DNA from: a virus
Length of the DNA: 64,000 nt
Virus record (IMG/VR): IMGVR_UViG_3300037010_002261
Location: 26,152 to 90,151 of that record
Reading direction: 5' to 3' (one strand)
Shown: in pieces, positions 1,143-62,970 of the stretch
Numbering within the stretch: position 1 is the stretch's first letter
Layout of the letters: every line of letters begins with the position of its first letter
Program-made: the position numbers and the translations under genes
Notes under the pieces: model-generated
Databases searched by the model: none
What the model saw: only the letters and a program-made list of their open reading frames with translations
Told to the model about the DNA's origin: nothing

Positions 1143-1334
1143 ATGTGGGACATCCTCACCTTCATCCTTAACTTCCTCACCCACCCGTTCCTGGTGGGCG
1201 CATTCGTCGGCGCTGCAGTCGGCGCCTGGTTCTACCGCTGGATGCTGAAGCGTAACCCAGCAAAGCTCGAGCAGTGGGCTCAAGAAGCGAACGGCCTGGC
1301 CGCTCTCGCTAAGTCCAAGTTGGACAACAAGTAA
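1143..1334 (+). CDS. Small membrane protein, 63 aa
   Basis: A single strongly hydrophobic segment spans residues about 5-32 (LTFILNFLTHPFLVGAFVGA), followed by a charged, amphipathic C-terminal helix. This suggests an inner-membrane anchor with a cytoplasmic tail. The start has a GGAG Shine-Dalgarno element in a 35-base leader that begins at a TAAATA box (1103-1108). Function unknown; a holin or membrane-adapter role is only a guess. Confidence 0.6.
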   Translation: MWDILTFILNFLTHPFLVGAFVGAAVGAWFYRWMLKRNPAKLEQWAQEANGLAALAKSKLDNK

Positions 1335-1366
1335 CGGTACAAGTAGGATTGTTACACTTTAGCCGG

Positions 1367-1395
1367 TTTACAACGACTTCGACTGTAAATACAAT
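1367..1395 (+). promoter_or_regulatory. Sigma70-type promoter of the tRNA operon leader
   Basis: TTTACA at 1367-1372 and TACAAT at 1390-1395 with a 17-base spacer. This is the same promoter form as at 2639, 5208, 7200 and 10332. Transcription would start near 1401-1403, immediately before the leader ORF at 1405, so the leader mRNA would be almost leaderless. Confidence 0.75.
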
Positions 1396-1404
1396 TCTAC
1401 CATC

Positions 1405-1479
1405 ATGAAGAACACCTCCCTATCATATTTGAGCTCCTCATCGCTTTATAGCGATGGAGGCTTTTGCATGATCGGGTAA
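1405..1479 (+). CDS. Ser/Leu/Tyr-rich leader peptide, 24 aa
   Basis: A 24-codon ORF between the promoter and the first tRNA. Residues 5-16 read SLSYLSSSSLYS: twelve consecutive codons for serine, leucine or tyrosine only (Ser TCC x2, TCA x2, TCG, AGC x2; Leu CTA, TTG, CTT; Tyr TAT x2). Those are the amino acids of the tRNAs encoded downstream, and every codon used has a cognate tRNA in this window. The ORF lies across the first hairpin arm and ends just after the second arm, as in amino-acid operon leader peptides. Inference: its translation measures the supply of charged class II tRNAs. It lacks a Shine-Dalgarno sequence. Confidence 0.75.
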   Translation: MKNTSLSYLSSSSLYSDGGFCMIG

Positions 1480-1540
1480 GACAGAACTTCTACCTTCACA
1501 CCTAGCAAAAGCCTCCGACCGAAAGGTCCGAGGCTTTTTC
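1436..1540 (+). promoter_or_regulatory. Transcription attenuator (pause hairpin, antiterminator, terminator)
   Basis: Four segments are visible. Segment 1 (1436-1444) pairs with segment 2 (1451-1460) with one bulge. Segment 2 extended, GGAGGCTTTTGC at 1456-1467, is perfectly complementary over 12 bases to segment 3, GCAAAAGCCTCC at 1505-1516. Segment 3 also forms the 5' arm of the terminator with segment 4 (1525-1539). The antiterminator and terminator are therefore mutually exclusive. A ribosome stalled in the Ser/Leu/Tyr run would cover segment 1 and free segment 2 to block the terminator. A ribosome reaching the stop at 1477 would cover segment 2 and let it form. Confidence 0.75.
1507..1540 (+). 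terminator. Intrinsic terminator of the tRNA operon leader
   Basis: AAAAGCCTC-C-GACC, GAAA tetraloop, GGTC-C-GAGGC then TTTTT: 13 base pairs interrupted by one C-C mismatch, with a U tract. It lies 42 bases before the first tRNA, so it would switch off the whole cluster when formed. Confidence 0.8.
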
Positions 1541-1581
1541 TCATTGGTGTGACGCTCTTTAACAATTCGCGCTTTACTTTT

Positions 1582-1666
1582 GGGGTCGTAGACAGTAATG
1601 GCTTCTGCCCGGCCTGTAAACCCGGTGTCCCTGACCAACAAGGTTCGATTCCTTGCGGCCCCACCA
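1582..1666 (+). tRNA. tRNA-Tyr(GTA)
   Basis: Acceptor GGGGTCG pairs with CGGCCCC, then A and an encoded CCA. T arm CAAGG-TTCGATT-CCTTG. Anticodon loop CTGTAAA gives GTA. The long variable region is as expected for class II tRNA-Tyr. One mismatch (C-C) closes the anticodon stem. Confidence 0.8.
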
Positions 1667-1674
1667 AAAGTAAT

Positions 1675-1755
1675 GGATCAGCTGGGTGAGACGAGCCCAG
1701 GAGCCAGTTTGGGCTCCCGCGAAAGCTACGTAGGTTCGACTCCTATCCTGATCCA
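1675..1755 (+). tRNA. tRNA, isotype unresolved, long variable region
   Basis: Acceptor GGATCAG/CTGATCC and T arm GTAGG-TTCGACT-CCTAT are clear. The anticodon stem GGAGC/GCTCC encloses an 8-base loop CAGTTTGG, so the anticodon cannot be read safely (TTG is possible). The variable region is about 12 bases with a small GC-GAAA-GC hairpin, which suggests class II. CCA is not encoded. A base error or a degenerate gene are both possible. Confidence 0.6.
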
Positions 1756-1769
1756 CCCGTAAGACCCTT

Positions 1770-1850
1770 GGAGGTATAGACGCCTATGGAGAGCGCCCGG
1801 ACTGTAACCCCGGTACTTCGGTCATGAAGGTTCGATTCCTTCTACCTCCA
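1770..1850 (+). tRNA. tRNA-Tyr(GTA), second copy
   Basis: Acceptor GGAGGTA/TACCTCC, T arm GAAGG-TTCGATT-CCTTC. The loop CTGTAAC has U33 followed by GTA, with one A-C mismatch closing the anticodon stem. The variable arm has a TTCG-capped mini-hairpin. CCA not encoded. It differs clearly in sequence from the tRNA-Tyr at 1582. Confidence 0.65.
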
Positions 1851-1856
1851 CCCACC

Positions 1857-1935
1857 GCCCTGGTGATGAAATCTTGGTAAACATGTCCGCCTCAGAAGCG
1901 GAATTCTGCGGGTTCGAGTCCCGCCTAGGGCACCA
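1857..1935 (+). tRNA. tRNA-Leu(CAG) with a shortened variable region
   Basis: Acceptor GCCCTGG/CTAGGGC, A, encoded CCA. Anticodon arm TCCGC-CTCAGAA-GCGGA gives CAG. T arm GCGGG-TTCGAGT-CCCGC. Only five bases (ATTCT) separate the anticodon and T arms. Bacterial tRNA-Leu normally has a long variable arm there, so this one is unusual. Confidence 0.8.
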
Positions 1936-1938
1936 TAT

Positions 1939-2021
1939 GCACACGTGATGGAATTGGTATACATCACAGCCTCAGACACTGTGGCCTTCGGGATTGGGAG
2001 TTCAAGTCTCCCCCGTGTGCA
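1939..2021 (+). tRNA. tRNA-Leu(CAG), second copy
   Basis: Acceptor GCACACG/CGTGTGC. The D loop contains GAATTGGTA, typical of Leu. Loop CTCAGAC gives CAG. The variable arm GGCCTTCGGGATT is long. CCA not encoded. This appears to duplicate the decoding of the neighbouring Leu(CAG). Confidence 0.75.
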
Positions 2022-2023
2022 CC

Positions 2024-2029
2024 TAAATA
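2024..2029 (+). promoter_or_regulatory. Late-type TAAATA box before the HNH gene
   Basis: TAAATA lies 6 bases before the ATG at 2036, the spacing seen before many genes here. A transcript starting there would be leaderless. Confidence 0.45.
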
Positions 2030-2035
2030 GGCAGC

Positions 2036-2545
2036 ATGAAACGCGGACCTAAACCAGCTACACCAATTTCAACGGCACACATGTGTGCTTACGACTGTGG
2101 GCAAACTGCCCTATTCATTAGTGCAAGTGGAAAGTACATTTGCTGCAAGAGCGCTAATCAATGCTTAGCAAATCGAGCTAGAAGCAGTGCTACATTGAGA
2201 GCTGGCTATCAAGCAGGAAGACCTACTGCAGGGCCGATGCGCGAAGATAGAATCAAGGGCGGTTTAATGGCCGCACGTATTGCAAAAGACAAACGGCAGC
2301 ACCACTTAACAGATGCACCATGGCACGAAGTTCCTAAGAGCTGCTTCCATGAGCGCGTGTTGTTAGAGCAAGGCGGCATTTGTAAAGAATGCGGCCTTGG
2401 ACAAACTTGGAATGGCAAGCCCTTAGTGTTTCAGCTTGATCACGCTAATGGTGATAACAAGGACAATCGGCGTGAAAACTTACGCATGATCTGTCCCAAC
2501 TGTCACACACAAACTCCAACGTGGGGTTTTAAGAAACGTACTTAG
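2036..2545 (+). CDS. HNH homing endonuclease inside the tRNA cluster
   Basis: The C-terminal third has CKECG, then QLDHANGDNKDNRRENLRMI and CPNCH, the zinc-ribbon HNH arrangement with the catalytic DH. The N-terminal part has two further Cys-containing clusters that may bind DNA. It sits between two tRNA-Leu genes and is markedly more AT-rich than its neighbours, as expected for a mobile free-standing endonuclease. tRNA genes are common homing targets. Confidence 0.85.
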   Translation: MKRGPKPATPISTAHMCAYDCGQTALFISASGKYICCKSANQCLANRARSSATLRAGYQAGRPTAGPMREDRIKGGLMAARIAKDKRQHHLTDAPWHEVPKSCFHERVLLEQGGICKECGLGQTWNGKPLVFQLDHANGDNKDNRRENLRMICPNCHTQTPTWGFKKRT

Positions 2546-2549
2546 TCAC

Positions 2550-2634
2550 GCGCCCGTGGCGGAATGGGTAGACGCGGCAGACTCAAAATCTGTTGCCGCA
2601 AGGCGTGTCGGTTCGAGTCCGACCGGGCGCACCA
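2550..2634 (+). tRNA. tRNA-Leu(CAA)
   Basis: Acceptor GCGCCCG/CGGGCGC, A, encoded CCA. Anticodon arm GCAGA-CTCAAAA-TCTGT gives CAA. Long variable arm; T arm GTCGG-TTCGAGT-CCGAC. Strongly similar to the tRNA-Leu at 11092. Confidence 0.9.
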
Positions 2635-2638
2635 AGTG

Positions 2639-2667
2639 TTTACAAGCGGATCGTGATGATGTACAAT
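2639..2667 (+). promoter_or_regulatory. Sigma70-type promoter with conserved leader
   Basis: TTTACA (2639-2644), 17 bases, TACAAT (2662-2667) followed by CAT. The downstream leader has GATACTTAGGAG just before the ATG at 2704, a block shared with the promoters at 5208, 7200 and 39497. Confidence 0.8.
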
Positions 2668-2703
2668 CATTCCATTCTGCCAACCGATACTTAGGAGCAC
2701 AGC

Positions 2704-2961
2704 ATGACCTTCCCGACACAAATTGTAGTCACAAAAGACGGCGTCGAGGTGTTCAACGCGGTCGCAGGAATTCATCGCGGCCAACCGCTGACCTACCCAG
2801 GCTGCGAGGACTCTGCTGCGCGAGGCTTCATCTGCTTTGCAAGCCCACTCATTGGTTGCGCTTACCACTACACCAGTTACATCGAAGCCGCTGAGCGCAT
2901 CGCCCGCATGGGTTACATTACGACCATCACGGAAGCCGGCGCCGACAAGGTGATTCAATGA
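2704..2961 (+). CDS. Hypothetical protein, 85 aa
   Basis: Unrecognised small protein directly behind a strong promoter and an AGGAG ribosome-binding site, hence probably early. It begins TFPTQIVVTKDG and has several Cys and Tyr residues in the middle (ARGFICFA, GCAYHYTSY). Its stop overlaps the next start by ATGA, so the two are likely co-translated. Confidence 0.6.
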   Translation: MTFPTQIVVTKDGVEVFNAVAGIHRGQPLTYPGCEDSAARGFICFASPLIGCAYHYTSYIEAAERIARMGYITTITEAGADKVIQ

Positions 2962-3248
2962 GCTGCGTTCACAACTACAAGCCGGTCGAAGGCGTCCGCG
3001 CCGTCTACCGCTGCCCAAGCTGCGGCATCTTTGCGCACAAGAGCAAGGCTCGCATCGGTCATGGCTCAAGCACCGAACTGACACCCTACAAGTGCCACCG
3101 CACAGGGTGCGATCAGCCGGTTGTCGTGCTGTACCCGGTTGTCAAGGGACGGAAGCGCTCACAACCTAGCTGCACCTTCCACCGCAAGGACCAAGAGATC
3201 GCAGAGCTCGGGCCGCTGTCCGACGCCATCCGAAACTTCAAGCGGTGA
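2958..3248 (+). CDS. Zinc-ribbon-like small protein, 96 aa
   Basis: Cys/His pairs at residues about 3-5 (CVH), 19-22 (CPSC), 46-51 (CHRTGC) and 72-75 (CTFH) suggest one or two bound zinc ions. The basic C-terminus would suit nucleic-acid binding. Function unknown. Overlaps both neighbours by four bases. Confidence 0.55.
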   Translation: MSCVHNYKPVEGVRAVYRCPSCGIFAHKSKARIGHGSSTELTPYKCHRTGCDQPVVVLYPVVKGRKRSQPSCTFHRKDQEIAELGPLSDAIRNFKR

Positions 3249-3466
3249 AGCTCGAGTACCTGACCGATAAGGCAAGGCACCTCATCTGCTTGCCCTACTC
3301 AATCGAGAACCTGCACCTGATGGCGCAGGAGCTCAACATCGCTCGCTGCTGGTTCCACAAGGACCACTACGACATTCCCAAGCGCCGCATCGCTGAGATC
3401 GAAGCGAAGTGCCGGATCGTGACCAGCCAGGACATCGTCCGGATCGCGAGGCACGGTGGCGACTAA
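3245..3466 (+). CDS. DUF4031-like protein, 73 aa
   Basis: GTG start overlapping the upstream stop. The order HLICLPYSIENLHLMAQ, then ARCWFHKDHYDIP, matches the DUF4031 family found in phages and bacteria, whose activity is unknown to me. The stop codon TAA is itself the beginning of a TAAATA late box for the next gene. Confidence 0.65.
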   Translation: MKLEYLTDKARHLICLPYSIENLHLMAQELNIARCWFHKDHYDIPKRRIAEIEAKCRIVTSQDIVRIARHGGD

Positions 3467-3469
3467 ATA
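3464..3469 (+). promoter_or_regulatory. Late-type TAAATA box overlapping a stop codon
   Basis: TAAATA begins with the stop codon of the DUF4031-like gene and ends 5 bases before the ATG at 3475. Confidence 0.45.
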
Positions 3470-3474
3470 CCAGC

Positions 3475-4035
3475 ATGAAGTGCTGGCATGAACTGACTAT
3501 CCCGACAGCGGGCGCCCTAAGACCTGGTTGGACGCTCCCCGCTGACCCCAAGCCCTGGGCTATCTATGACCCTACGCTGACCGACATCTTCACCGATGAT
3601 TGGTTACGCTGGATGACCTTGATCGGCCTGCCGGTCTGCCAGGCTATCTTGTTCTACAAGCAGCCTTGGGCTCGAAGCCCCATCGCGCACATCGACATGA
3701 GCACGCCGACTAGGCCGAAAGCATTTGCTTTTAACTGGGTCCTAGGCGGCAAGGGGAGCAAGATGCTGTGGTACACAGGGCATGAGGGCAAAGCAGGTGC
3801 CGCAAGCCTGACCATGGTCGAGACAGACTACCTCTCATGGCCTAAGACGGAGCTCACGCTTATTGACAGCCATGAGGTCAAGCAAGAGCTTACGCTCGTG
3901 CGCACGGACGTTCCGCACTCCATTGACGTGGAGGCTGAGCCTCGGTGGTGCATTAGCGTAAGGGTTCCTGACAGCGTCATTGGGGCCTCTTGGAACGAAG
4001 CTGTAGCTAAGCTGCAGCACCTCATCATCGGATGA
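3475..4035 (+). CDS. 2OG-Fe(II) oxygenase-like double-stranded beta-helix protein, 186 aa
   Basis: The central part has an H-x-D motif (HIDM at about residue 73), then FNWVLGG and MLWYTG, a distal His (VPHSID) and a distal Arg in RWCISVRV. This order is the iron and 2-oxoglutarate binding pattern of the jelly-roll oxygenases. Substrate unknown; phage members may hydroxylate nucleotides or proteins. The stop codon overlaps the first bases of the tRNA-Ser gene at 4030. The ATG at 3475 was chosen because of the TAAATA box just before it. Confidence 0.55.
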   Translation: MKCWHELTIPTAGALRPGWTLPADPKPWAIYDPTLTDIFTDDWLRWMTLIGLPVCQAILFYKQPWARSPIAHIDMSTPTRPKAFAFNWVLGGKGSKMLWYTGHEGKAGAASLTMVETDYLSWPKTELTLIDSHEVKQELTLVRTDVPHSIDVEAEPRWCISVRVPDSVIGASWNEAVAKLQHLIIG

Positions 4036-4120
4036 TAAACCGGGCGGGCGTCCGGGGCCGCCTTGAAAGCGGTACGGTTCGGCTAGTACCCGGGCTGGGG
4101 TTCGAGTCCTCTGTCATCCG
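4030..4120 (+). tRNA. tRNA-Ser(TGA)
   Basis: Acceptor GGATGAT/GTCATCC, anticodon arm GCCGC-CTTGAAA-GCGGT giving TGA, a long variable arm and a T arm with TTCGAGT. CCA not encoded (G-CCG follows). Its 5' end overlaps the stop codon of the preceding CDS. Confidence 0.85.
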
Positions 4121-4170
4121 CCGCTTTATATCACCTTGGCCGAAAAGGTAATATAATGCAAACACATCAC

Positions 4171-4253
4171 GCCCTCGTGATAAATGCAAATTGGTACAGC
4201 TACTAGCTTGAGATGCTAGATTTTTGCGGGTTCGAGTCCCGCCGAGGGCACCA
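4171..4253 (+). tRNA. tRNA-Leu(GAG) with a shortened variable region
   Basis: Acceptor GCCCTCG/CGAGGGC, A, encoded CCA. Anticodon arm CTAGC-TTGAGAT-GCTAG gives GAG. The D loop has AAATTGGTA. Only six bases (ATTTTT) lie between the anticodon and T stems, so the usual Leu variable arm is missing, as in the Leu(CAG) at 1857. Confidence 0.8.
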
Positions 4254-4254
4254 A

Positions 4255-4399
4255 GGTGACATGCTGAAAATTGGTAGACAGCGTCGCGGTCAAGTCAAGA
4301 CGGAGAGGCCTTATCACCCTCGCATGCCCATGGCAGGAACCGATGGCATAAGCTAGCATGACAGACTATGCATCGTAGGTTCGAGTCCTACTGTCACCT
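4255..4399 (+). tRNA. tRNA-Leu-like element, 145 nt, with a large internal expansion
   Basis: The ends form a good acceptor (GGTGACA/TGTCACC), a T arm GTAGG-TTCGAGT-CCTAC and a Leu-like D arm (CTG-AAAATTGGTAGA-CAG). Between the D and T arms lie about 100 bases instead of about 45, with several small inverted repeats. I could not place a canonical anticodon arm. It may be an intron-containing, rearranged or decayed tRNA-Leu. Confidence 0.5.
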
Positions 4400-4402
4400 T
4401 AC

Positions 4403-4491
4403 GGAAGATGAACCGGACAGGGTCCGGACCTGCTTCGAAAGCAGTGGGAGTCACAGAGATGTGGCTTGGGGTTCAAGTCCTCCGTCTTCCA
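4403..4491 (+). tRNA. tRNA-Ser(CGA)
   Basis: Acceptor GGAAGAT/GTCTTCC, anticodon arm CTGC-TTCGAAA-GCAG giving CGA, long variable arm, T loop TTCAAGT. CCA not encoded. Confidence 0.85.
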
Positions 4492-4493
4492 CC

Positions 4494-4579
4494 GCCCCGT
4501 TGGCGAAATTGGTAGACGCAGCAGGCTTAAACTCTGCCGCCTCGGAAGAGGCGTACCGGTTCGAGTCCGGTACGGGACA
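4494..4579 (+). tRNA. tRNA-Leu(TAA)
   Basis: Typical Leu layout with D loop AAATTGGTAGAC, anticodon arm GCAGG-CTTAAAC-TCTGC giving TAA, variable arm GCCTCGGAAGAGGC and T arm ACCGG-TTCGAGT-CCGGT. One mismatch in the acceptor (second pair). Confidence 0.85.
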
Positions 4580-4582
4580 CAT

Positions 4583-4677
4583 GGATAGTTAACCGGTTAG
4601 GTGACCGGACCTGCTTGGAAAGCAGTGGGATTCTTCGGTAACGAGGGATTGGGTTTCGAGTACTCAACTATCCGCCA
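4583..4677 (+). tRNA. tRNA-Ser(GGA)
   Basis: Acceptor GGATAGT/ACTATCC, G, encoded CCA. Anticodon arm CTGC-TTGGAAA-GCAG gives GGA. Long variable arm. The final A of CCA is also the first base of the ATG at 4677. Confidence 0.85.
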
Positions 4678-5075
4678 TGATAGCACACAACGACATTACC
4701 GGCGATGCCCTCAAGTCCAAGTCAACTACCGACTCCTACCGTAGCGGGTGGGACCGAATCTTTGGCAAGAAGGCTGAAGAACAAGAGCCAGCTGCAGAAG
4801 CACTTGGCAAGGAAAAGCGGTACATTGTCCGTGTTGGGCTTGACGCAAAGTACTCGCCCGAAACCGCCGCAAGGCTAATCAATGCAGAGTACGGCACGGT
4901 GCTTCGCGCGTCTGGTCAAAGCTTGCTTATCACGCTGCGTGACGCTCCCGACACGCTCAACCACCTGAAGGAGGCTACAGGTTGCGCTGTGTCCGAGGAG
5001 GTGCTGTACAAACGGCCTGACGCACGCTTACATGTACGGCTCTACGACGACCCGCTCGAAGATCATCACGACTGA
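4677..5075 (+). CDS. Hypothetical protein starting on a tRNA CCA end, 132 aa
   Basis: Unrecognised, acidic at both ends. A middle segment KRYIVRVGLDAKYSPETAAR and a later LLITLRDAPDTLNHLKE suggest a small alpha/beta fold. The only ATG uses the last A of the upstream tRNA-Ser CCA, and there is no Shine-Dalgarno element. Either translation and tRNA maturation compete, or a non-ATG start further inside is used. Confidence 0.55.
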   Translation: MIAHNDITGDALKSKSTTDSYRSGWDRIFGKKAEEQEPAAEALGKEKRYIVRVGLDAKYSPETAARLINAEYGTVLRASGQSLLITLRDAPDTLNHLKEATGCAVSEEVLYKRPDARLHVRLYDDPLEDHHD

Positions 5076-5092
5076 GTAAAGCGCGAATTCAT

Positions 5093-5188
5093 GGAAGGTT
5101 AACCAGGTAGGTGCCTGGACCGGATTGCTAATCCGAGGGTCTCGCTCTCAACAAGCGGGATGGGTTTCGAGTACTCAGCCTTCCGCCA
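5093..5188 (+). tRNA. tRNA-Ser(GCT)
   Basis: Acceptor GGAAGGT/GCCTTCC, G, encoded CCA. Anticodon arm CGGA-TTGCTAA-TCCG gives GCT. Very long variable arm. With TGA, CGA and GGA this completes a serine set. Confidence 0.85.
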
Positions 5189-5207
5189 TCTTTTTGTCTC
5201 TCGAGTG

Positions 5208-5236
5208 TTTACACGGAGGCCGTACTGGTGTACAAT
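5208..5236 (+). promoter_or_regulatory. Sigma70-type promoter
   Basis: TTTACA (5208-5213), 17 bases, TACAAT (5231-5236) then CAT. The leader includes CAGTGATACTTGGAG before the ATG at 5273, nearly identical to the leader at 7230-7260. Confidence 0.8.
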
Positions 5237-5272
5237 CATCATATCGGCAACAGTGATACTTGGAGATGCAAG

Positions 5273-5617
5273 ATGCTCAAATCGCTCAATGATTCCAACC
5301 TTTGCGCCCTGCATGCAGGCGCCACGAAGGTCTGGTACTACAAGCCCGCGGTCGCCCGCTACATCACCTTCGGCGAGGTCAAGGTTGACCCGAAGAACCT
5401 GGAGGCAACGCACGTGCTGTTGGGCTCCATCGCCGAAACCCACCTCGAAGCTATCTTCGGCTCTCTCCAAGGTGAATGCTGGTCCCCGAACGGCGAAGCC
5501 CGCGAGCTAATCACGAGCAAGGAGCTGAACCACACCTCGATGTCCGTCGGTGACGTGATCGAGGTCAACGGCCGCGCCTACGAGTGCAAGCCGTTTGGCT
5601 TTGCGGAGCTGGTATGA
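5273..5617 (+). CDS. Hypothetical protein, 114 aa
   Basis: The start ATG at 5273 follows GGAG and the promoter leader; an earlier in-frame ATG would lie inside the promoter. Residues near the C-terminus, HTSMSVGDVIEVNGRAYECKPFGF split around residue 95, resemble a domain widespread in plasmid and phage hypothetical proteins. No catalytic motif is obvious. Its stop overlaps the next start (ATGA). Confidence 0.6.
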   Translation: MLKSLNDSNLCALHAGATKVWYYKPAVARYITFGEVKVDPKNLEATHVLLGSIAETHLEAIFGSLQGECWSPNGEARELITSKELNHTSMSVGDVIEVNGRAYECKPFGFAELV

Positions 5618-11091: not shown

Positions 11092-11178
11092 GCGCCCGTG
11101 GTGAAATTGGTAGACACACCAGGTTTAGGTCCTGACGCCAGCAGTGGCGTGCCGGTTCGAGTCCGGCCGGGCGCACCA
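11092..11178 (+). tRNA. tRNA-Leu(TAG)
   Basis: Acceptor GCGCCCG/CGGGCGC, A, encoded CCA. D loop AAATTGGTAGAC. Anticodon arm CCAGG-TTTAGGT-CCTGA gives TAG. Variable arm GCCAGCAGTGGC. The last A of CCA is the A of the ATG at 11178. It stands alone, far from the other clusters; bases 10950-11091 hold nothing else I can identify. Confidence 0.9.
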
Positions 11179-13896: not shown

Positions 13897-14168
13897 GCAA
13901 GAACAAGCTCCTGGAGCTTCAACAAACGTTCATCGACCGACTTGCGCTTGACTATGACGTGGTCCTGCGGGACAAGAAGCTGCACGTGATGCGGGGCACA
14001 CGGATCATGATCCACGCTGTCTTCATGGAGACCGTGGATCAGGTGATGCTGGCGTTCTTCACCGGCAACCCGATCTTCTTCGTGTGGTCAGAGGATGGGC
14101 CTGCTTACATCGCCAAGATCGGCGTTGAGCGTTTGCACAAAGAGCTCGACAAGAATCCGTGGAAGTAA
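13893..14168 (+). CDS. LQQ-family protein, 91 aa
   Basis: A clean short member of the family: KNKLLELQQTFIDRLALDYD, then strands DVVLRDKKLHVMRGTRIMIH. Probably the minimal domain. Its stop is followed directly by the tmRNA acceptor segment. Confidence 0.6.
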   Translation: MSKNKLLELQQTFIDRLALDYDVVLRDKKLHVMRGTRIMIHAVFMETVDQVMLAFFTGNPIFFVWSEDGPAYIAKIGVERLHKELDKNPWK

Positions 14169-14169
14169 A

Positions 14170-14434
14170 TAAGAGCTGAACAGCGTAAACTGAAGGTAAG
14201 AAAAGCGGCGACACCCGGGTTCAATTCCCGGCACCTCCACCCAAGCACATATCATGTGTTCTTCGGTGGGGGTGACTTGGCGATCGACCGACGCGTAGTA
14301 TGACCATAGGCGCTCGATAGGTGACTGCCGTAAGCAGCGCAAAGCATTACAAACGCAAACGACTCTGTCTACGCGATGGCGGCCTAATAAGCCTTCGGAG
14401 TTCGTAGCCGTACTTGGCAACAGAAACGGCTACA
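14170..14434 (+). ncRNA. ssrA: Circularly permuted (two-piece) tmRNA, tag ANDSVYAMAA
   Basis: The 3' tRNA-like part comes first: T arm CCGGG-TTCAATT-CCCGG (14215-14231), CACCTCC (14232-14238) and A-CC. A short hairpin spacer (14242-14267) follows, and then the normal 5' end GGGGGTGACTTGGCGATCGA (from 14268). GGGGGTG pairs with CACCTCC over all seven positions (one G-U). The resume codon GCA at 14355 opens a tag reading ANDSVYAMAA and ending TAATAA (14385-14390), close to the E. coli tag ANDENYALAA. A strong hairpin closes at about 14431. This is the gene order of permuted ssrA in alphaproteobacteria, some betaproteobacteria and cyanobacteria. It rescues stalled ribosomes and tags nascent chains. 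Confidence 0.85.
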
Positions 14435-14930
14435 CCCCTTCAGGATATACCCACGTCCTCTTACCGTCAACGACGGCAATTTTCCTGCCTGTAATTGTCT
14501 TAGACAATTTTTCAGCTGACTTGCGTCCATTTTCAGCTGCATTGGGATTCTTTACCCCTTTGTTCCAGGCAGGTTTCCCCGTGCCTTTCCCCTTTCGGCC
14601 TTCGCTGATAGCTTTACAATAGTCTTCAGACATTGTCTTGCCTGCATTCCATGGCAATTGACCTTTCTTGCGACCGACTTTCTGATTGTAGTACTTGGTA
14701 TTGTACTCACAGTCCTTAATTCTGGCTAGTAGATCCCATTCTAGCTTTCGAATCTCTTCAATGTCGCTGATCTTAAGGATTCGACGCTTGAAGTCTTGAG
14801 GTCGATAGTGATATTCACCATTGAACCAACGCGACGATGAGGTGTAGCTGTCTGTCGGTACTCCTTCATGAGAGCCGATGTAGTACATGTTACGCAACGA
14901 GTCGCGCCAGAGATAGATGAAGCCTTGCAT
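14430..14930 (-). CDS. GIY-YIG homing endonuclease, 166 aa
   Basis: N-terminal FIYLWRDSLRNMYYIGSHEG is the GIY-YIG core in the phage Seg-like form, followed by YTSSSRWF. The second half has NUMOD3-like DNA-binding repeats (GKTMSEDYCKAISEGRKGK, PAWNKGVKNP). AT-rich against a GC-rich background. It is antisense to, and abuts the last hairpin of, the tmRNA gene, which is a plausible homing target. Confidence 0.85.
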   Translation of the reverse strand: MQGFIYLWRDSLRNMYYIGSHEGVPTDSYTSSSRWFNGEYHYRPQDFKRRILKISDIEEIRKLEWDLLARIKDCEYNTKYYNQKVGRKKGQLPWNAGKTMSEDYCKAISEGRKGKGTGKPAWNKGVKNPNAAENGRKSAEKLSKTITGRKIAVVDGKRTWVYPEGV

Positions 14931-16062: not shown

Positions 16063-16536
16063 ATGAAGCTCTCGCAAATCATTGAGTCTTATAAGTATGA
16101 GGCTCCAAGCCCTGACGCTAAAAGCGTTCAGGATGCTAAGCTTAGATTCAAAAAATTGATTGCAGCTGGAGTTCTCTATCATCAAACACGTAAAGAAAAC
16201 GTTGAGTCAATCTTGGCTAACGGTTTCGTAAAGAACTCTTTCTTTAGCTTTAATAAAGTAAATCTGCTTAAGCATGAAGACTGGGTGACGCTTAGCGTGA
16301 AAGGCAGTGATGTCGCCGATGACATCCTTCCCGACCCCGAACACATGTACGCTAGCCATTGGATTAGCGATCTAATGACCGTGAATGGCTGGTCTAGCAT
16401 AGAATTTGAGCGCGTCATTACTGTCATTGACAAAGATATCTTGCCGTGGATATTTTTTGGCATTCAAAAGAAAATATCTACTGGCTTTTGGCTAGTTTGC
16501 AGCAAGCCAATTGACCCCAAGCTTATTATCAAATGA
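16063..16536 (+). CDS. Possible ADP-ribosyltransferase-fold protein, 157 aa
   Basis: Residues about 38-60, VLYHQTRKENVESILANGFV, match the H-x-T...I..IL..G element of the ART superfamily (RNA 2'-phosphotransferase, DarT and related NAD-binding folds). The rest is not diagnostic and a catalytic Glu is not obvious. More AT-rich than neighbours. It overlaps the NTase gene by ATGA, suggesting joint action. Confidence 0.4.
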   Translation: MKLSQIIESYKYEAPSPDAKSVQDAKLRFKKLIAAGVLYHQTRKENVESILANGFVKNSFFSFNKVNLLKHEDWVTLSVKGSDVADDILPDPEHMYASHWISDLMTVNGWSSIEFERVITVIDKDILPWIFFGIQKKISTGFWLVCSKPIDPKLIIK

Positions 16537-18323
16537 CTTTCAAGACCTTCCTCTCCGAAGCCCTCATCCTTGAAGGCGGCGCCGCTATCAAGGGCTCCCA
16601 CCCGCTGACCCAAGCCGAGGCTCGGGAGATCGGCATGCAGGTCATCTGTGACCTCAAGGTCAAGCTTAACCTCCCGTCATCAGCTATCGCGCTTGTCGGC
16701 AGCGCCGGTTTGAAGGAGCCCGACCAGCTCTCAGGTGATATCGACGTCGCGGTGGAGGCTGATGTTACGCTCGTCAAAACCGCCGTAGAGCAGCTGGCTT
16801 TGAACGGCCAATTCCGCCACATGCCGGGCCTTAATGTCTACAGCTTTGCGCGGCTCCATGGGTCAAAGATAGCCCAAGTTGACATCATCCCTACAACGAA
16901 CCTCAAGCTAGCGAAGTGGGCCTACTACAACGCCCCGAACGACCTGAAGCTAGGCTTGAAGGGCTCTCACCGCAATGAGCTGCTGTTTGCAATCGCGAAG
17001 TATGCGGAGTACAAGGTGACGGCCAGGGCGGCAGACGGCCAAGAGACGGCAAGGAGTAGGCTTGCATTCGATCTAAGCCGTGGGCTCTATAGGTCAACAC
17101 AGGACAAGGCAGGAAAACGCGGGATCACGAAGTCCTTCAAGACCACGGGCAAGAGCCTGATCACCAGCGACCCTGACAAGATCTGCACCATCCTCTTCGG
17201 CTCAAGCGTGAGCGCGAAGCAGGTCATGACCTACGGCGACGCCTTCAAGCTAATGATGTCATCAAGCTTCCCGCACAAGGCACAGCTGAAGGAGATCCTG
17301 AAGCGAGCCGTTGAGGGCTTGGAAAGCAAGAAGCTGGTCGTACCTGCTGAGCTACGCCAGGCGTGTACAAGTAAGCTCAATGAAGCCAGCACGTTGCGGT
17401 CACGGGCTCTCTTGATCCAGCAGGCTATCGTTGACGCGCTGCCTAAGCACAATGTCAAGATTGAAGATGGCGGCAAGGAGGTCGTCGTCTATGATCACCT
17501 CGGCGACAAGCTCTACGACGTAAGCATCGCGAACCTCTTGGGTGATGATGCCGCTCTACCTCACTGGGTCGCGAACCTCTTGGGTGATGATGCCGCTCTA
17601 CCTCACTGGGTCAAGCTACATGTTGCTTATGCGGAACGTACTGCGTTCTTGAAGATCATCACAGCGGCAGGCTTTAAGCGGAACCACGTTAACTACACGC
17701 AGGAGTACGAGCTTACTCTTGATGATCGACGGCTCATCGCAACGACTAAGCATCCGCTAACAATCTATGTGAGCACGCTTGACCGCTTCAGCGTTGAGCG
17801 AGTCCGAGTGCGTGACGTTGAGCAAACAAGAGAGGCCATCGCTTACTCTAAGACAGTCCACCTCGACGACAACGTGATCCAACGGACTATCGCCGACGGC
17901 CCTGTTGAGAAGATCTTTGAAGAGGTTGAATACAGCAAGCGCGTGATGCTTTCGCTTCAGCAGAAGTTCATCGGCTTTGAGACGCCTAGAGGCCGTGAGT
18001 TTGACGACGTCAAGATGAGTGGCGGCGTACTGCATGCATGCCTTAGATGCCAGCACTACAATTGGACATTCGGCGCATCGCACGTGCCGTACTCAGGCAA
18101 CAGGGACAGGTTGAGGGTCACCTTGAAAGCCAGCGGCGGTGACTATGACACCGAATGCTCGTACATCATCCGCCGGGTGCCTAACGAAGAACGCATCCTG
18201 ATGTTTGTTGACGGCGGCGCGCTCACCGACGGCGAGGACGAAGCTGTGTTTGATACTTGGGAGCAAGCTCTCAATAAGCTCATGTCAGAGCTAACTGCCA
18301 TCTTCAGCGACCAAGACGAGTGA
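16533..18323 (+). CDS. Nucleotidyltransferase fused to two LQQ domains, 596 aa
   Basis: Residues about 53-75 read LVGSAGLKEPDQLSGDIDVA: the GS and D-x-D of the DNA-polymerase-beta-like NTase superfamily. VDIIP further on supplies the third acid. Residues about 290-330 (RALLIQQAIVDALPKHNVKI) and about 470-520 (VMLSLQQKFIGFETPRGREF) are two copies of the LQQ domain. Between them is an exact 14-residue tandem repeat. Likely substrate: RNA or a small molecule, unknown. Ends tail-to-tail with the next gene with no gap. Confidence 0.6.
   Translation: MTFKTFLSEALILEGGAAIKGSHPLTQAEAREIGMQVICDLKVKLNLPSSAIALVGSAGLKEPDQLSGDIDVAVEADVTLVKTAVEQLALNGQFRHMPGLNVYSFARLHGSKIAQVDIIPTTNLKLAKWAYYNAPNDLKLGLKGSHRNELLFAIAKYAEYKVTARAADGQETARSRLAFDLSRGLYRSTQDKAGKRGITKSFKTTGKSLITSDPDKICTILFGSSVSAKQVMTYGDAFKLMMSSSFPHKAQLKEILKRAVEGLESKKLVVPAELRQACTSKLNEASTLRSRALLIQQAIVDALPKHNVKIEDGGKEVVVYDHLGDKLYDVSIANLLGDDAALPHWVANLLGDDAALPHWVKLHVAYAERTAFLKIITAAGFKRNHVNYTQEYELTLDDRRLIATTKHPLTIYVSTLDRFSVERVRVRDVEQTREAIAYSKTVHLDDNVIQRTIADGPVEKIFEEVEYSKRVMLSLQQKFIGFETPRGREFDDVKMSGGVLHACLRCQHYNWTFGASHVPYSGNRDRLRVTLKASGGDYDTECSYIIRRVPNEERILMFVDGGALTDGEDEAVFDTWEQALNKLMSELTAIFSDQDE
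17529..17612 (+). repeat. Perfect 42-bp tandem duplication in the NTase gene
   Basis: Bases 17529-17570 are repeated exactly at 17571-17612. In frame, this doubles ANLLGDDAALPHWV. The lack of any difference means it is very recent or an assembly artefact. Confidence 0.95.
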
Positions 18324-61881: not shown

Positions 61882-62970
61882 TTAAGCGGCCTTGAGGCCG
61901 GCTGAGTTGTTGGCTTGCTCGAGGAACCAGGCCTTGGCGATGTTGTTGACCGCCTTGGTCACCTCCTTCACCTCGAAGCCGTTGCCGACAATAGTGTCGG
62001 TCTCTTCCTTGACGATGTCCGTGCCCACCCACTTAAGGAACGGGCCCATGTTGCGAATATCGAACACGTCCTCGCAGTGCATCGTCTCCTGCAAGAAAGC
62101 GACGGCCTTCTCGAGACGGTGCTCCGTGGTCACGGCTTGAGCAAGCTCCTTGATCGAGTTGAGCCGCTCGATGTCCACGGCGGCCACGGTGGTGACCTTC
62201 GTGTCCGAGTGCTTCTCACCCTTGACCTTGAAGACCAGGTCGGAGATGCGCAGGCCGCCGACGTCCTGACCGCCGACGCAGGTCCAGACGATGCCTTCGC
62301 CGACGCCCGAGACGTTGTGCGCCGAGCCGAATGGGCAGAGCTCCTCCACCTCGGTGGTCAGGCGAACCAGCTCGTTCTGAGCCGCAGCCGGATTGGCCAT
62401 GTCAATGGTCAGCTGCCAGGTACGGTACTTCTCGATGCACTTGACCGTGCTGCCGTTGGTCGCAGCAGCTGCTGAATCATAGATCGACTCGACCTCCCAG
62501 GGCATCAGCCAAAGCGAACGCTCGCTCTCGAGACTGATGAGCCGCACGCCGAAGATGACGAACTGCTTCGGCAGCTGGTTGAGCGCAACGCCCTTCTGGA
62601 TGTTGCCGCCGCACCACTCGCCGTAGATACCGACCAGGCACTTGAACGGTGTCTCGTAGTCACGGCTGAAGAAGGACGCCTTGGCCAGCGATGCGAACCT
62701 CAGCAGGAACTGACGCACGTCATCGTTGCCGTGGACGTAGGCGGCAAAGCCAGCGTTGTCATCGCCCGGTGTCAGGACGTTAGACCGGGACTGGCAGTAG
62801 AAGCTGGCGTCTTCGCCGACAATGACGGACACGTTCATGCCGTGCAGCTTGATCGTGCCGTGGAAGCTGAGCTTCGGCAGGCCGATGTTGCTGAAGGTGC
62901 AACGGTCCTTGACGGTCCGGATGACGCCGCGAAACTGGTCGATGTTTGGGAAGGAGTAGTGCGTGTTCAT
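61882..62970 (-). CDS. Rnl2-type RNA ligase, 362 aa
   Basis: Motif I GTIKLHGMN (KxxG with the adenylated Lys near residue 41), motif III GIYGEWCGGNIQKG, motif IV EGIVW and motif V LVFKVKGEK are all present in nucleotidyltransferase order. It seals nicked RNA, and in T4-like phages such ligases repair cleaved tRNAs. No 3'-phosphatase/kinase partner is seen here, though a HAD enzyme is at 19686. Confidence 0.85.
   Translation of the reverse strand: MNTHYSFPNIDQFRGVIRTVKDRCTFSNIGLPKLSFHGTIKLHGMNVSVIVGEDASFYCQSRSNVLTPGDDNAGFAAYVHGNDDVRQFLLRFASLAKASFFSRDYETPFKCLVGIYGEWCGGNIQKGVALNQLPKQFVIFGVRLISLESERSLWLMPWEVESIYDSAAAATNGSTVKCIEKYRTWQLTIDMANPAAAQNELVRLTTEVEELCPFGSAHNVSGVGEGIVWTCVGGQDVGGLRISDLVFKVKGEKHSDTKVTTVAAVDIERLNSIKELAQAVTTEHRLEKAVAFLQETMHCEDVFDIRNMGPFLKWVGTDIVKEETDTIVGNGFEVKEVTKAVNNIAKAWFLEQANNSAGLKAA

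Follow-up and report, generated by a model that had tools for sequence, protein, structure and literature searches.

A T4-like jumbo phage most likely controls a tRNA operon by ribosome-mediated transcription attenuation: when class II tRNAs are uncharged or missing, the leader would derepress genes for their replacements. The window analysed here, 64,000 nucleotides long, comes from a linear IMG/VR record of 90 kb (G000). A second record (G001; 113 kb) carries a leader and tRNAs 100% identical to those in the window, and two more that represent this phage in other samples (G020 and G021; overlaps 99.94-100%), from which the leader is absent, extend its known sequence to ~265 kb.

In the proposed mechanism, transcription would begin near position 1402 and a ribosome would load at the 5′-proximal AUG. 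When charged Ser, Leu and Tyr tRNAs are plentiful, this ribosome would cross twelve Ser/Leu/Tyr codons to reach the stop codon and would mask segment 2 of the leader, the terminator hairpin would form, and tRNA transcription would remain low. When any Ser, Leu or Tyr tRNA is scarce, the ribosome would instead stall within the run, segments 2 and 3 would pair, the terminator would not form, and RNA polymerase would continue into the replacement class II tRNA genes, whose products would relieve the stall, so that the class II tRNA pool would be under negative feedback. The analysis shows the parts, their statistics and, in silico, the dependence on ribosome position; we infer that the leader ORF is translated, that termination takes place, that the switch responds when tRNAs run short, and that the likely reason for their running short is a host defence that cuts or disables tRNAs with a long variable arm.

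Leader ORF, codon run and alternative pairings

The promoter that an earlier, sequence-only reading had placed upstream of the leader ORF was recovered (Table 1) and belongs to a real promoter class of this phage: allowing up to one mismatch, TTTACA-N17-TACAAT occurs at 18 sites in 131.5 kb, compared with 0-2 in shuffled sequences, and most of the sites have an ATG within 40 nt downstream. The leader ATG lies only 9 nt past the −10 box, and the 5′ end of the transcript should therefore fall within ~3 nt of it; no Shine-Dalgarno sequence precedes the ORF. Leaderless initiation is plausible, since promoters of the same class lie equally near other ORFs of this phage, including that of a 5′-3′ deoxyribonucleotidase (phrog_2643, E 5.5e-24; L008 140-688), which has coding-like codon usage, starts with an ATG ~8 nt past TTTACA-N17-TACAAT and serves as a precedent.

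Translation of the 24-codon ORF bore out the claimed run, with Ser, Leu or Tyr at every residue from 5 to 16. It is the longest of its kind in the six frames of 131.5 kb, where the next longest has 8 codons, and when the leader was shuffled with dinucleotides preserved, 0 of 200,000 sequences had a run of twelve. Ser, Leu and Tyr together make up 19.1% of the phage's residues, which gives p^12 of ~2.4e-9, close to the ~0.2^12, or ~4 in a billion, estimated beforehand. Under standard decoding, the Ser codons of the run (UCC, UCA, UCG, AGC) need all four Ser isoacceptors and its Leu codons (CUA, UUG, CUU) need three of the five Leu isoacceptors, and the Tyr codon is UAU. The run codons are rarer than expected from phage codon usage (p ~0.03), and CTG, CTC and TAC, the commonest Leu and Tyr codons of the phage, are missing.

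Segments 2 and 3 can form the perfect 12-bp antiterminator that had been described, a match that arises in 12 of 100,000 shuffles; for other terminator-like hairpins from the same scan, the upstream complements are 6 nt at most. The intrinsic terminator that had been proposed to use segment 3 was likewise found, as a hairpin with a U tract, and the antiterminator and terminator, with one strand in common, are mutually exclusive. The 1:2 hairpin also exists, but it did not hold up as a clean competitor of 2:3: the 2:3 helix can form alongside its core and only the extended 1:2 stem competes, making it a weak protector in comparison with the textbook leader. This hairpin itself resembles a terminator or pause site.

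Table 1. Features of the leader and of the tRNA gene set (positions in the window).
Feature	Position	Strand	Remarks
Promoter TTTACA-N17-TACAAT	1367-1395	+	Recurrent class in this phage
Leader ORF, 24 codons, MKNTSLSYLSSSSLYSDGGFCMIG	1405-1479	+	Probably leaderless; stop at 1477
Twelve-codon Ser/Leu/Tyr run	1417-1452	+	TCC CTA TCA TAT TTG AGC TCC TCA TCG CTT TAT AGC
1:2 hairpin	1436-1460	+	Core CATCGC/GCGATG (1439-1444 with 1451-1456), CCT/AGG extension, then TTTT
Segment 2, antiterminator strand, GGAGGCTTTTGC	1456-1467	+	Perfect 12-bp complement of 1505-1516
Segment 3, GCAAAAGCCTCC	1505-1516	+	Common to antiterminator and terminator
Intrinsic terminator	1507-1540 (hairpin 1507-1538)	+	9+4 bp stem, one C-C mismatch, GAAA loop, U5 tract
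tRNA-Tyr(GTA)	1582-1666	+	
tRNA-like gene, no assignable anticodon	1675-1757	+	Abnormal anticodon loop AGUUUG closed by 6-bp stem; acceptor and T arms intact
tRNA-Tyr(GTA), copy two	1769-1854	+	
tRNA-Leu(CAG), short variable loop	1857-1935	+	No long arm
tRNA-Leu(CAG), long variable arm	1938-2023	+	
HNH (homing-type) endonuclease	2036-2545	+	Within tRNA array
tRNA-Leu(CAA)	2550-2634	+	
tRNA-Ser(TGA), tRNA-Sec-like D arm	4030-4122	+	Missed by ARAGORN
tRNA-Leu(GAG), short variable loop	4171-4253	+	Missed by ARAGORN; family homologues in other phages
Interrupted or degenerate tRNA-like element	4255-4402	+	Perfect acceptor and T arms, ~60 extra nt
tRNA-Ser(CGA), tRNA-Sec-like D arm	4403-4492	+	Missed by ARAGORN
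tRNA-Leu(TAA)	4494-4580	+	
tRNA-Ser(GGA)	4583-4675	+	Missed by ARAGORN
tRNA-Ser(GCT)	5093-5188	+	
tRNA-Leu(TAG)	11092-11178	+	Completes the Leu set

The tRNA gene set and the shortage it may answer

ARAGORN identified 8 tRNAs, all for Tyr, Leu or Ser, and a scan for acceptor and T arms added four tRNA genes, whose anticodons were read by eye from the sequence, and two tRNA-like elements. The Tyr and Leu tRNA genes reported by the sequence-only reading are both present downstream, as part of a fuller set of 14 tRNA or tRNA-like genes in the window that also includes Ser. All 12 genes with a readable anticodon are for Ser, Leu or Tyr, the same amino acids as in the codon run, and they provide four isoacceptors for Ser, five for Leu and the one for Tyr; the ~265 kb of this phage yielded no tRNA for any other amino acid. 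In contrast, related phages carry mixed sets in which 33 of 159 tRNAs (~21%) are for Ser, Leu or Tyr, a rate at which the probability of 8 out of 8 is ~4e-6. The set is therefore defined by tRNA class, and its being essentially complete, with no other tRNA found, makes the connection with class II tRNAs stronger. Immediately after the attenuator come the genes at 1582-2634, and the Ser cluster (4030-5188) lies beyond a second promoter at 2639, because of which the Ser tRNAs may not be under control of this attenuator.

Several members of the set are structurally altered. The Ser tRNAs have extended D stems and short loops like those of tRNA-Sec; two of them match the tRNA-Sec model somewhat below its gathering score, and the exact D-arm pattern common to two had no other occurrence in IMG/VR. 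Two tRNAs with Leu anticodons lack the long variable arm and belong to a family that recurs in other phages (L013 6001-6079 and L014 9001-9079), where it is unannotated in the two records examined. Such tRNAs are not unique to this phage, being present also in Synechococcus phage BUCT-ZZ01 and Rhizobium phage RHph_I1_18, both of which have mixed tRNA sets. The short-armed Leu tRNAs and the Ser tRNAs with Sec-like D arms are what one would expect if they escape an enzyme that recognises class II structure, and the two tRNA-like elements may be decoys or decaying genes.

As the earlier reading had suggested, the leader could act as a sensor of tRNA-directed defence. In one form, which we rate as somewhat less likely than not, this would be an inducible counter-defence: the leader would gauge the class II tRNA pool, and a host enzyme that destroys tRNAs with long variable arms would turn on a replacement set that is complete and structurally altered (short-armed Leu, tRNA-Sec-like Ser). 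Such a system would imply that hosts have a defence, as yet undescribed, that targets the whole class of class II tRNAs. The tRNA set here is class II, and known variable-loop cutters act on tRNA-Tyr. Related strategies have been described: the tRNA-Tyr of phages T5 and SP15 evades tRNA cutting by retron-Eco7 PtuAB (PMC11555353), the tRNA-Tyr of T6 is directed against Septu EcB88 (PMC13096335), and phage tRNAs with an altered anticodon loop evade tRNA-cutting defences (PMC10264068). In each case, as here, the phage supplies replacement tRNAs, although those cases concern single tRNAs with no attenuator described, whereas here all class II isoacceptors are present, no others were found, and there is a putative sensor.

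Another explanation for the arrangement is that the same attenuator answers a shortage that the phage itself brings about, or one that arises from ordinary limits on host amino acids or tRNAs during infection, with the set serving as a general class II supply. The leader would react whenever charged Ser, Leu or Tyr tRNA runs short, for any reason, no defence system has been linked to this phage, and the phage has an RNA ligase, all consistent with this explanation. However, a general supply leaves unexplained why only the long-arm classes are present, with all isoacceptors and no other tRNA found in ~265 kb. Two Leu tRNAs lack the long arm and the Ser D arms are altered, as might be expected under structural attack. 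We consider this explanation unlikely.

Ribosome position and terminator formation

The dependence of the leader on ribosome position was modelled at equilibrium, and not kinetically, by folding it at 37°C with its 5′ part masked to mimic a ribosome with a 12-nt footprint. The free full-length leader RNA favoured the terminator (0.82-0.91). With the ribosomal A site at ORF codons 5-13, the first nine of the run, the terminator probability was ≤0.18; at codon 14, the tenth of the run, it was ~0.4, and from codon 15 to the stop it was 0.94-0.98. The permissive window also included codon 4 and partly codon 3 but otherwise matched the run, minus its last two codons. A 9-nt footprint gave a window from codon 5 to codon 14, and footprints of 9-15 nt moved the pattern by about one codon, the pattern being stable at 25-37°C. 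When the leader was shuffled with the terminator kept, 998 of 1000 sequences had no permissive codon and none attained the observed ten. In these models, stalls within the run favour the antiterminator and completed translation favours the terminator, in agreement with the earlier reading.

Ribosome-free transcripts ending up to position 1532, from which the terminator 3′ arm has not emerged, formed the 2:3 helix at 0.99. Because 2:3 is favoured without a ribosome until that point, with the 1:2 core coexisting, the operon might also be derepressed if the leader ceases to be translated, and an untranslated transcript might antiterminate kinetically. This behaviour is compatible with a general translation-arrest leader, in which any slowing of the ribosome or loss of leader translation leads to readthrough with no specificity for class II tRNAs. 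However, a codon run for class II tRNAs only would then be purposeless, and the absence from the run of the commonest Leu and Tyr codons also argues against such a leader, which we judge improbable. A simple insulator ahead of the tRNA genes, made of one terminator or of terminators in tandem, with an untranslated ORF and a fortuitous run, would account for the lack of a Shine-Dalgarno sequence, for the terminator-like 1:2 hairpin followed by TTTT and, segment 2 being a near copy of the terminator 3′ arm, for a 2:3 pairing produced by duplication of a terminator half, but it is very unlikely, as duplication leaves the run unexplained (0 of 200,000 shuffles) and the run coincides with the stall-permissive window and matches the tRNA set in its amino acids.

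Against the attenuator itself stand the missing Shine-Dalgarno sequence, the short U tract (U5) and the fact that the permissive window ends before the final two run codons; the sequence statistics and the ribosome-constrained folding support it well, and the original observation emerges strengthened. The leader is known in one sequence version, the copy in G001 being identical.

Comparison with known leaders and with related phages

In the trp, his, leu, ilvGMEDA, thr and pheST leaders, an ORF rich in codons for the operon product precedes alternative 2:3 and 3:4 pairings, and ribosome position decides between them. The phage leader has a short ORF with clustered codons cognate to the downstream product and, in silico only, yields the antiterminator on stalling at the regulatory codons and the terminator on completion. 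It would work like a trp/ilv-type attenuator and is a likely, though formally incomplete, member of that group, with a predicted translation start and a predicted response to tRNA charging. Like the ilv and thr leaders, it would sense several amino acids through one leader. In contrast to all of these, it precedes tRNA genes in a phage, would sense the class of tRNAs with long variable arms and not the product of a pathway, and probably has a leaderless start. Leaderless polycysteine uORF attenuators occur in mycobacteria; they too have a short ORF that begins at the 5′ end of the transcript or close to it and contains a regulatory codon run, although the organism and amino acid differ and they govern metabolic genes, whereas here a tRNA operon is concerned. 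T-box riboswitches are likewise RNA leaders that answer uncharged tRNA by antitermination, but they bind the tRNA directly, whereas the leader here has a codon run; a T-box was rejected, with no covariance-model match at the gathering threshold in the window or at a relaxed threshold in 1300-5600.

No description of an attenuated phage tRNA operon was found in the literature searched, which lay mostly outside subscription journals. If the attenuator is real, it would have no precedent, as far as that literature shows, either in the control of a phage tRNA operon by ribosome-mediated attenuation or as a leader responding to a structural class of tRNA. Such an attenuator would also provide a direct test of why phages carry tRNAs, with the answer written in regulatory codons, and one could search for the host defence against class II tRNAs whose existence it predicts.

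By terminase, the nearest cultured relatives are Xanthomonas phage XacN1, Stenotrophomonas phage RAS14, Pseudomonas phage PA5oct and Sinorhizobium phage Phosso (37-43% identical). IMG/VR scans with the terminase and other proteins returned only the identical G001 and phages of ≤58% protein identity, in which the locus was not found, and the exact 2:3 pair pattern occurred across IMG/VR in G001 only. Comparison of the leader with phage nucleotide sequences gave short chance matches only, and no convincing leader-like run was found before the tRNA clusters of related jumbo phages. Matches to the Rfam families SurA, Plastid-ycf2 and Rev39 were far below gathering scores and were attributed to chance; no Rfam cis-regulatory family matched.

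Among the neighbouring genes, an upstream HNH protein (7-366) was considered as part of a Septu system and rejected, its likeness to PtuB being weak and confined to a generic HNH motif. The phage encodes a tmRNA (14149-14478), which matches the permuted and betaproteobacterial tmRNA models and could rescue ribosomes stalled through tRNA loss. Near it lies a gene for a 596-aa protein of unknown family (16533-18323), which had no PDB, Pfam or PHROG match and whose N-terminal part, GSAGLKEPDQLSGDIDVAVE, appears nucleotidyltransferase-like by eye. The RNA ligase (phrog_548) is encoded at 61882-62970 and possibly functions in tRNA repair.
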